Source of the DNA: Prochlorococcus sp. AG-412-P08 | Lineage (GTDB): Bacteria > Cyanobacteriota > Cyanobacteriia > PCC-6307 > Cyanobiaceae | Direction: 5' to 3' | NCBI GenBank assembly: GCA_003214695.1 | Contig: QCLI01000008.1 | Coordinates: 1-52,261 of the forward strand | DNA length: 52,261 nt | The notes under the pieces: generated by a model | Database searches by the model: none | The model's input: the letters and a program-made list of their open reading frames with translations, nothing else | Told to the model about the DNA's origin: nothing | Made by a program: the position numbers and the translations under genes | In this document: piece after piece, positions 38,938 through 46,198 of the stretch | How the letters are laid out: each line of letters begins with the position of its first letter | Numbering within the stretch: the stretch's first letter is position 1

Positions 38938-39759
38938 TTAACTAGAGATTCCAAAAGCCAATCCAAAAGAAAATATTGTTAATTGCAATAGGGTTTTAAT
39001 ATAATTATAATTGTAATTATTAAAGTAATTACAATATAAATCTGATAAACCTGTTCCGAATATCATATAGTTAAGTAAAGCACATAGCAAAATATTTAAA
39101 GATGCAATTGTTAGGATTAGGCATATAAATATTCTATCCTGACTAAAAATAAATGCATTGATAGAGTTTATTGAACTAAGGTTCAAATGGTCTATCTTAA
39201 AAATATACACTGTTAAAATTACATATAAAGGAATGTTATTTAAATAAAGTAAAATTATACTATTTCTACTAGCAAGAGAAAATAATACTATAATCATATA
39301 AATCAGCAGGAAATACGGATTAAAAACATATTCTATTAAGTGTGAAAGCTGTGAAGAAGAATTAAGATAGTCAAAGGTTGTATAATTATCTATAAGATAC
39401 TTGAAAGAAAATACAAATATCAGATAAATAATCGTTAGCATTATTAGTAAATATGCTACGTATTTATTAATTGGTAATGTTTCCTCTGTTGTAGAAATAC
39501 TCTTAGTAATTGAAATTAATTTATTCCATGATTTGTACCATTTCCATATTATAAAGAATGGAATAAAACAAATAACAGATGACAGTATGTGGTACATGGT
39601 TAAATAATTAGAGTTACTATTCCACTCATAGCCTGATAAAAGATGTACCTTGTGAAGAAATTGCCCCCAAAGTAAATAGAACATTATAAAAAGAAAATTC
39701 AGAAAGAAATTATTAAATGAAATCCTTATGCCTAATAAATCTTCTAAGAAGCTCTTCAT
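38938..39759 (-). CDS. Polytopic membrane protein of unknown function
   Basis: 273 residues, very hydrophobic, with roughly seven to eight transmembrane segments, rich in Ile, Leu, Tyr and Asn. A Tyr-Asn repeat region (NYFNNYNYNYIK) lies before the last helix. No transporter, peptidase or enzyme motif is recognised. The ATG sits two bases after the stop of the FtsH-like gene upstream, so they form an operon and may be partners. Fast divergence or lineage restriction is likely, since the composition is skewed. Confidence 0.6.
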   Translation of the reverse strand: MKSFLEDLLGIRISFNNFFLNFLFIMFYLLWGQFLHKVHLLSGYEWNSNSNYLTMYHILSSVICFIPFFIIWKWYKSWNKLISITKSISTTEETLPINKYVAYLLIMLTIIYLIFVFSFKYLIDNYTTFDYLNSSSQLSHLIEYVFNPYFLLIYMIIVLFSLASRNSIILLYLNNIPLYVILTVYIFKIDHLNLSSINSINAFIFSQDRIFICLILTIASLNILLCALLNYMIFGTGLSDLYCNYFNNYNYNYIKTLLQLTIFSFGLAFGISS

Positions 39760-39761
39760 AG

Positions 39762-41528
39762 TTAGTCTGTGTAGGAGTTAGTGGCTGTTTTAAATAGTGT
39801 TTCAAAACGTTCTTTAGTGAATACTTCCTCCTCTAAAAGTGATGCCGCCATAATGTCTAATACATTTAGGTAGGGGGTTATTTTTTGTTTGGCTTTTTCT
39901 TGTGAATCTCTTATTAATGTAGTTATTAGACTATCTATTTGCTTATTTGTCCTATTTGCGTAAATAGATTTTGATCCCAGTAAACTGGATTCAAAGCCTT
40001 TTGCCAACTTATCAATAACTATTGAAATTGGCCCTAAGTCTGAAAAGCCATATTTAGTGACCATTTTGTTAGCTAGTAATGTTGCTTCATCCAATTGATT
40101 TGATGATATTTGAGTGATTTCGGATTTTCCAAAAATGAGTTCCTCTGCAGCTCTTCCGCCTAGAGAAACCATAAGTTTATTTTCAAGGTATCTTTTAGAG
40201 AAATATCCATCTTCGCTATTTTGAGTTAAATTGGTAAACCTTGTATTTCCAGTTAGGCTTCCACTTCTTCTAAGTATTGTTATCTTGTCCACTGAATCAG
40301 CAGATGGAGTTAAATAGGCAACAAGCGCTTTGCCTATCTCGTGATAAGCAATTATCCTTAATTGATTTAAGCTCTTAAGGGGATAGTCTCTTAAGCCCAG
40401 TGTAATTCTATCTAGAGACTTCTCTAATTGTTTTTCTCCTATTCTTTTCTTGTTTTCTCGAGCTGTAATTATAGCTGCTTCATTTAAGAAATTAGATAGA
40501 TCTGCTCCAGAAAAACCGGGTGTTCGTATAGCCCATTCCTTAAGAATAACATTGTCACATAATGGTTTTGAAAGAGCATGAATAGACAAAATATCTTCTC
40601 TACCTTTTCTATCTGGAAGAGATACATTTATTCTTCTATCAAATCTACCTGGCCTAATTAATGCTGGGTCTAATACTTCCTCCCTATTAGTAGCAGCTAT
40701 GACAATTACACCAGAGTTTTGTGGAAAACCATCCATTTCTATGAGTAACTGATTAAGTGTTTGTTCTCTTTCATCATTACCACCTCCAATTCCAGAACCT
40801 CTCTTTCGTCCAATTGAATCTATTTCATCAATAAAAATAATACTTGGAGATTTACGCTTAGCTTGAGCAAAAAGACTACTCACTCGGCTTGCTCCGATTC
40901 CAACAAATAATTCTACAAATTGGGAGGCAGAAGTAGAAATAAAGGGCACACCAGCTTCTCCTGCTAGGGCCTTCGCTAGTAATGTTTTACCTGTTCCAGG
41001 AGGGCCAGTTAAAAGAAAACCCTTAGGAATACTAGCTCCTAAATTATTATATTTATCAGGTATTTTCAAAAAAGAAACTATCTCTTTTACTTCTTCTAGA
41101 GCCTCTGGAATACCTGCTATATCATCAAAACGGGTAACTATATTTATTGTATCTTCAAAAGAAGCTTTCCCACTCAAAAAAGAAATACTTTTATTAGCTA
41201 ATTTTGCAGACTTCTTGATTAATATTATACATAATAAAATAAATATAAAACCAAGAGTAAAACTTGCAGTAAAGGAAGCGAAAGTCTCTTCAGCCCTTCC
41301 ATCTCTAACTTCTAATACAATACCATTTGATTCTGCAGTCTCAAGTACTGTTTGATCATTAGGGAAAATAGGAATTATTTTTGACTGACCATCTTTGTAT
41401 TTAGCATGGACTTCTCTTCTAGATGGAATAAGGATCAGTGATTCGATATTTTGAGATGCCATGTCTTCTAATAGGCTGCTATAGCTATTAGAATCATTAT
41501 CTTTATTTGAAATAAACCTCGAAAACAC
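39762..41528 (-). CDS. FtsH-like AAA+ protein with degenerate protease site
   Basis: 588 residues. The AAA+ part is intact: Walker A GPPGTGKT (175-182), Walker [12 protein letters not shown], and the second region of homology [22 protein letters not shown]. The M41 zinc site is not: the HExxH motif reads HEIGK (His396, Lys400), and the third ligand position, Asp in SNDxxxAT, is Gln478 (SNQLDEAT). The N-terminus begins in the periplasmic or luminal domain and has one membrane helix (about 86-104) instead of two. It is therefore probably an ATPase or unfoldase without proteolysis. GTG start; no ATG upstream before the in-frame stop. It is co-transcribed with a polytopic membrane protein. Confidence 0.85.
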
Positions 41529-45542: not shown

Positions 45543-45887
45543 ATGACATCAAATAAGTCTAATAAAAAATTGCTAAATAAAGAGAATCTATCTAATAACG
45601 GTTTTCTCCAAACTTTTATTACCACATTCACAACAGTCTTTATTGCAGAGTTAGGAGATAAGACACAGATAGCCACATTACTTCTATCTGCAGATACTGG
45701 CAGGCCATTATACGTCTTTATTGCAGCTGCATTGGCTCTTATTCTCTCCAGCTTAATTGGTGTTATCCTCGGGACCTATATATCAAGTAAAATTAGTCAA
45801 AACACCTTTAATAAAGTTGCTGGAGGTATTATGATCTTTATTAGTATATATATCTTTTTTAATGTATTTAAAATTTATTTCTCTTAG
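45543..45887 (+). CDS. GDT1/UPF0016 family half-size cation transporter, first gene
   Basis: 114 residues with three predicted helices and the family motif ELGDKT in FIAELGDKTQIATLLLS. UPF0016 proteins exchange Mn or Ca; in Synechocystis the homologue Mnx exports Mn from the cytosol to the thylakoid lumen. Full-length members have two motif-bearing halves; here each half is a separate gene, and the two products presumably form a heterodimer. It lies just upstream of the second half. Confidence 0.87.
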   Translation: MTSNKSNKKLLNKENLSNNGFLQTFITTFTTVFIAELGDKTQIATLLLSADTGRPLYVFIAAALALILSSLIGVILGTYISSKISQNTFNKVAGGIMIFISIYIFFNVFKIYFS

Positions 45888-45898
45888 TTTTACCTGAA

Positions 45899-46198
45899 AT
45901 GTCAATTACTATTTTCTTTTCAATATTTCTGACAATTTTCATAGCTGAATTGGGAGATAAAACTCAAATAGCAACTTTAGCTATTAGTGGATCTAGCAAC
46001 TGGCCATTGGCAGTTTTCCTTGGGTCATCCTTCGCTTTGGTGCTTGCTTCATTGTTAGGGGTCTTATTAGGTGGCTCTATAGCAAAATTAATACCTGAAC
46101 TTCTAATAGAGCTTATTGCTGCAGTAGGTTTCATGCTTATAGGACTGAATCTCGTAATGACAGGCCAGGAAAATGAGGGTAGGGATTCGACTGAATAA
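45899..46198 (+). CDS. GDT1/UPF0016 family half-size cation transporter, second gene
   Basis: 99 residues with the same motif in FIAELGDKTQIATLAIS and three helices. It pairs with the preceding gene, 11 bases upstream; together they would rebuild the six-helix, two-motif transporter. The tail is short and acidic (QENEGRDSTE). Confidence 0.87.
   Translation: MSITIFFSIFLTIFIAELGDKTQIATLAISGSSNWPLAVFLGSSFALVLASLLGVLLGGSIAKLIPELLIELIAAVGFMLIGLNLVMTGQENEGRDSTE

Follow-up and report, generated by a model that had tools for sequence, protein, structure and literature searches.

Why would a picocyanobacterium retain an FtsH-type protein in which the ATPase motor is complete and the zinc site of the protease domain is lost? 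The question is raised by a gene in a 52,261-nucleotide stretch of contig QCLI01000008.1 of Prochlorococcus sp. AG-412-P08 (the window), from a genome assembly of 1.55 Mb that comprises 52 contigs and is 82.8 % complete. The gene, located at 39762..41528 on the minus strand, has a GTG start and encodes 588 amino acids; it was assigned as an FtsH-type pseudoprotease from its open reading frame, Pfam domains and motifs. The locus is orthologous across picocyanobacteria: rpmF (ribosomal protein L32; 41676..41849, plus strand), the divergent upstream neighbour, adjoins it in 69/69 orthologue rows, and these rows form one group with support of 100 in the FtsH tree.

Domains and motifs of the window protein

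The two domains that characterise the FtsH family occur together in this protein, both above their Pfam cut-offs (AAA, 148 bits; Peptidase_M41, 140 bits). Motif reading bears out the first-pass annotation in its claims of a complete AAA+ motor and a broken zinc site. Walker A (GPPGTGKT, residues 175-182; 40983..41006, minus strand), Walker B (IIFIDE, residues 230-235; 40824..40841, minus strand), FVG at 208 and RPGRFDR at 292 are all present. The former HExxH motif reads HEIGK (residues 396-400; 40329..40343, minus strand), with Lys400 where the second His would be, and Gln478 (40095..40097, minus strand) occupies the position of the third ligand, which we take, from work on E. coli and Thermotoga, to be an aspartate in FtsH. 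The combination of HExxH with a third acidic ligand expected of the family is therefore absent (HEIGK, Gln478), and the score against the NCBIfam FtsH equivalog TIGR01241 (598 bits) is 2 bits below the cut-off of 600.

A structural model based on the window protein together with 36 relatives (mean pLDDT 75, pTM 0.42) is fairly confident for the individual domains and not for their mutual arrangement. Its components are an N-terminal domain, a single long helix in the membrane, the AAA region and an M41 region in which the main helices are present. The membrane helix spans residues 78-118 in the model and approximately residues 86-106 by hydropathy (41211..41273, minus strand). The M41 domain (PF01434, residues 389-577; 39798..40364, minus strand) is predicted to keep its fold despite the lost zinc site. 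The top Foldseek match was a model of E. coli FtsH, followed by a chain of the Ycf2-FtsHi motor and then by FtsH crystal structures, with TM-scores by query length of ~0.4-0.46. The best solved relative by sequence is an FtsH (E 7e-129).

Extent of the zinc-site loss

Our sample of 158 genomes comprised 14 from the genus of the window and 151 from across the family (at least 80 % completeness), with 7 common to both, and the orthologue was read in 142 of these picocyanobacterial genomes. HExxH is absent in 30/30 genomes from six genera (g1, 10 genomes; g13, 9; g38, 7; g28, 2; g12 and g4, 1 each), whereas HExxH and the third-position Asp are intact in 112/112 genomes of 31 other genera. Among the latter, g24 has genomes of 2.3-2.9 Mb and loci with more than 50 % GC. 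Intact orthologues in sister strains had been named in the first-pass annotation as the sign of a strain-specific lesion; such orthologues exist outside the affected clade, but none was found inside it (0/30). A strain-specific lesion is ruled out, as the site is missing from every copy read in the six genera. In the genus of the window HExxH is missing from all 10 full-length orthologues, compared with HExxH plus Asp in 19/19 FtsH paralogues checked. An eleventh orthologue (genome G006), split across two contigs, has NEIGT and a Tyr at 478, and this copy is predicted to be inactive too.

The 16 genomes outside the 142 are G006, one with a match whose sequence was not read (G076) and 14 with no orthologue-level match. 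Because rpmF is also missing in 12/14 of the last set, the locus is probably unassembled there, and these assembly gaps mostly account for the apparent gene losses; G090 and G145 have rpmF and no match to the ftsH orthologue. A search of named genomes with the window FtsH protein itself gave no match. With RpmF as query 80 named loci were found, 39 with an FtsH beside rpmF and 41 with none beside it. Seven of the 39 are inactive, all labelled Prochlorococcus (AG-363-B05, AG-363-M21, AG-402-B05, AG-402-L09, AG-402-K04, AG-439-M18 and AG-363-C02). The remaining 32 keep HExxH, with the third ligand unreadable in one (L278), and include three labelled Prochlorococcus (AG-409-L18, AG-363-K07 and AG-363-P08). 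Given seven inactive and three intact Prochlorococcus-named loci, the loss marks much, not all, of Prochlorococcus. The AG-363-M21 protein likewise combines HEIGK with Gln478, though it is only 54 % identical to the window protein.

The motor is conserved throughout. Walker A (GxPGTGKT) and Walker B are retained in 142/142 orthologues, active and inactive, the pore motif is FVG in 140 and FIG in 2, and three arginines are retained in 141/142, the last being Lys in the other. All 30 inactive genomes across the six genera therefore conform to the description of FtsHi, an FtsH homolog without HExxH that keeps the AAA motifs. This conservation bears on the possibility that the protein serves to dampen or titrate active FtsH hexamers and makes little use of its motor. 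A dead subunit in a mixed ring would indeed reduce the number of cleavage sites, but with ATPase motifs in 30/30 inactive genomes and the AAA domain the most constrained part of the protein, such a role is unlikely. The most divergent orthologue (L058, from G016 of genus g4; 45 % identity, end branch 2.39) has RNASK at the zinc motif, a Ser in Walker A and a Lys replacing the last SRH arginine.

Origin of the loss and order of the residue changes

The FtsH tree comprises 107 rows, and its 26 inactive rows, of which two are identical, group as a single clade within the active orthologues, with an SH-aLRT of 92 that is not strong by the standard of the program and involves long branches. A tree of neighbouring genes made by a quick method (RecJ, peroxiredoxin, HAD, DUF565 and RpmF, with ftsH left out) also unites the inactive genera, 22/22 rows among 57, with an SH-aLRT of 100, and a smaller tree of 33 rows, with g12 and g13 left out, agrees (16/16 inactive rows together). 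Since the inactive orthologues form one clade in both the FtsH and neighbour-gene trees, the simplest reading is that the zinc site was lost once, and a single loss in one ancestor of most Prochlorococcus is likely. Several separate losses are supported by neither tree, although the modest value in the FtsH tree should be borne in mind. recJ adjoins the locus in other inactive genera and was not found in the 11.7 kb covered for five loci of g12 and g13 (L060-L064).

The affected residues vary within the clade. Position 400 is Lys in 15, Arg in 14 and Ile in 1 of the 30 inactive genomes, none of which has the second His; the first His is kept in 6 and the Glu in 20, and position 478 is Asp in 18 and Glu in 3. 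Because the second His is never found while the Asp persists in 18 genomes, the second His was probably the first to go, and Gln478 would be a later change. The proposal of two independent ligand losses is consequently not supported, Gln478 appearing secondary, nor are Lys400 and Gln478 fixed in the orthologue group, as had been asked of them. It is conceivable that the protein is still a protease with another metal arrangement, given the residues that survive at the first His, Glu and Asp positions; however, the second His is gone from every inactive copy and all three positions vary, which makes this hardly credible. Lys or Arg at 400 is accompanied by an acid at 397 or 478 in 28/29 cases, among sequences that are related, and this pairing suggests that a salt bridge may have taken the place of the zinc.

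Absence of the first membrane helix

The protein has a single membrane helix and lacks the first. No first helix is encoded upstream in the window, where the frame closes 36 bases 5' of the GTG and the divergent rpmF lies beyond. By hydropathy, a clear first helix is missing in 68/69 orthologue rows, which represent 67 genomes with active and inactive sites; the exception (L114) has several possible starts, among which lies a hydrophobic stretch (1.84). A hidden first helix is thus ruled out for the window and for 68/69 rows, with L114 ambiguous. The helix is clear (2.2-2.8) in five paralogues of the genus and weaker (1.5-1.95) in four relatives from other cyanobacteria. As it is missing from protease-active orthologues too, its loss appears older than and separate from that of the protease site, and compatible with a complete zinc site. 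The absence noted in the first-pass annotation is therefore real in the window, but is not part of the change that removed the protease. In the nearest relatives, from other cyanobacteria (L129-L132), the weak first helix has an end resembling that of a signal peptide, e.g. ASPVIA, which might explain why the helix was dispensable.

Selection on the inactive orthologues

For the window gene and its closest counterpart (L077), dN/dS is 0.15 over the whole gene (dN 0.036, dS 0.24), 0.12 over the AAA domain (0.021 and 0.18) and 0.11 over M41 (0.042 and 0.38); a ratio near one across the ATPase domain, named in the first-pass annotation as grounds for refutation, is not seen. Median ratios in the inactive genera are 0.22 in g1 (45 pairs, with a median dS of 1.64 that is near saturation), 0.09 in g13 (36 pairs) and 0.08 in g38 (21 pairs), compared with 0.03 in g24 (11/28 pairs, the remainder dropped for saturation), 0.08 in g5 (28 pairs) and 0.05 in g20 (3 pairs), where the sites are intact. 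In inactive and active genera alike M41 evolves faster than AAA, the ratio of their dN values being 1.7-2.5 in the former and 1.5-1.8 in the latter. These ratios, well below one, indicate that the pseudoprotease has been kept under purifying selection with its ATPase motifs intact.

Gradual erosion of a dispensable gene, as its genome shrinks, could account for a protein that evolves faster than its counterparts in active genera and than FtsH3, and that has a truncated gene for a neighbour. It is nevertheless very improbable, since the frame is open in every full-length copy read and dN/dS is ~0.08-0.22 in three inactive genera (0.22 being near saturation), with 0.05-0.13 for AAA. Long end branches are also found in the active relatives g35 and g22, so part of the speed predates the loss of the zinc site. 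The view of the first-pass annotation that this is not a random defect is upheld, the zinc loss being clade-wide, on intact ATPase motifs and under purifying selection.

Identity of the gene and a possible role beside an active FtsH

The window gene is the most divergent of four FtsH types and is for that reason taken for picocyanobacterial FtsH4; by elimination and from papers on other strains, it is most likely the counterpart of Synechocystis FtsH1 (slr1390). In the text available, one paper equates FtsH4 with Synechocystis FtsH1 by a link 'less obvious than the others' (PMC6300248) and a table in another makes the same equation (PMC11262661). Synechocystis FtsH1, as described there, shares this fourth cyanobacterial type and the AAA and M41 domains; in contrast, the inactive clade lacks the zinc site and the whole picocyanobacterial group the first helix. 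The Synechocystis FtsH1/3 complex is described as essential for a reason that is unresolved, and as degrading the free Fur repressor (PMC11287208), and FtsH1 levels drop when FtsH3 is repressed (PMC9020784), as far as the accessible parts of these papers go.

The best explanation, to which we attach an even chance, is that the gene encodes a pseudoprotease selected across the clade as a non-cutting motor subunit beside an active partner of the FtsH3 type. The FtsH3-type paralogue, which we take to be L002, has an intact zinc site, with HEAGH plus Asp in the copy of the window's genome. From elimination and papers on other strains, the partner in this genome is probably the gene at 88679-90382 of contig C2. 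Most simply, one ancestor of most Prochlorococcus lost the zinc site of this FtsH, a Lys or Arg usually replacing the second His; the FtsH1 counterpart would still form a mixed hexamer with the protease-active paralogue. Within such a ring the pseudoprotease would take up substrates at the membrane, unfold them and thread them through, and the partner subunits alone would cut, while the Lys or Arg in the empty zinc pocket, against a remaining acid, would hold the fold. One observation counts against a mixed hexamer: comparison of 15 genome pairs from the genus gives 0.32-0.48 differences per residue for the pseudoprotease and 0.02-0.09 for the L002-type paralogue, and such faster change than in the presumed partner does not suggest a tightly fixed interface.

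If the FtsH1 counterpart has functioned since this common ancestor with one of the two kinds of protease site missing, cutting by that subunit is dispensable and its motor is what was retained; a free-living bacterium would then parallel what happened to FtsHi in plants. This would concern one of the most abundant phototrophs and a complex that is essential in a model cyanobacterium. In an Arabidopsis heterocomplex the protease activity of type B is dispensable, to judge by the title of a cited paper. Mixed hexamers of FtsH-type subunits, in alternation, are also known from the mitochondrial m-AAA protease (AFG3L2 and paraplegin), although no inactive subunit is described for that pair in the text examined and the inactive subunit proposed here is inferred.

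The inactive FtsH was partly anticipated in print: Mishra et al. 2019, in the portion available, describe a single FtsH of P. marinus SS120 that lacks HExxH and no such protein in the chlorophyll a cyanobacteria checked, and the accessible text of Mishra and Funk 2021 repeats the SS120 case. The FtsHi of plants and of SS120 is likewise an FtsH with an AAA domain and no HExxH. The difference is that here a single loss lies inside the picocyanobacterial orthologue group, with Lys or Arg at the second His; the likeness considered here is one of motif. The word 'zinc' does not occur in the available text of Bonisteel et al. 2018, and a search of the open-licence literature found no paper on how widespread the inactive Prochlorococcus FtsH is, how it arose, which residues it carries or what lies beside it.

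A truncated UPF0182 gene beside the inactive ftsH

Two bases downstream of ftsH in the window, at 38938..39759 on the minus strand, is a gene for a 273-aa multi-helix membrane protein that has no Pfam or NCBIfam match, and no PF03699 match was found in this genome. Among active loci of at least 7 kb, the next gene after ftsH in 16/37 encodes 915-955 amino acids, starting -4 to +68 bases from the stop, and all 16 of these places have a match to UPF0182 (PF03699). Seventeen short proteins were combined into a profile, which hhalign aligned over 245 columns with the N-terminal part of the 16 long proteins (98.4 %, E 9.4e-15), whereas column-shuffled controls gave 0.1 % or less in 20/20 cases. By this profile match the neighbour is a remnant of UPF0182 that corresponds over ~245 columns to the N-terminal membrane part and lacks ~650 C-terminal residues. 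UPF0182 occurs in 109/151 genomes and 30/40 genera, and in 0/6 inactive genera. The short form, with dN/dS of 0.24-0.46 in six chosen pairs, appears to be under purifying selection itself.

A truncated UPF0182 gene next to an inactive ftsH, with the full-length gene in active relatives, is a new observation; our literature search on UPF0182, judged by titles and the beginnings of abstracts, found no paper on cyanobacteria or FtsH. Both the shortening of UPF0182 and the loss of the zinc site map to a single stem branch, so that their association amounts to one event. Loss of UPF0182 as a general cause of protease loss was rejected: g8 (7/7 read) has an active site and no UPF0182 match.

Another explanation for the inactive FtsH is that it acts alone as a non-proteolytic membrane motor, forming homohexamers that would pull on membrane proteins or remodel them, perhaps together with the protein encoded downstream, akin to plant FtsHi in protein import. 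Such a motor is possible, and we hold it tentatively. Its ATPase and pore motifs are intact, the protein diverges fast from its paralogues, the small membrane protein is conserved alongside it in the window and in 18/25 inactive loci checked, and chains of the Ycf2-FtsHi motor rank high among its structural matches. However, the structural match does not discriminate, as FtsH and FtsHi have a common fold, and the neighbour is missing from the other seven loci, all from g38 (7/7), which retain the pseudoprotease. The Ycf2-FtsHi motor of chloroplast import also consists of non-cutting FtsH-type ATPases in a membrane complex; there the complex and its import function are known, whereas here the comparison draws on genes and a model.

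A more speculative and rather doubtful proposal is that a single module, made up of the pseudoprotease and the shortened UPF0182 protein, was remodelled as a unit in the ancestor of Prochlorococcus. What had been a membrane protease with a large partner would have become a small, non-cutting, ATP-driven motor for membrane proteins, a counterpart in bacteria of the FtsHi import motor of chloroplasts, and a Lys/Arg-acid pair would have replaced the zinc. Elsewhere in the window (45543-46198) there are two adjacent half-size genes that both contain ELGDKTQIATL, which we take to be a motif of the GDT1/UPF0016 manganese-calcium transporters.
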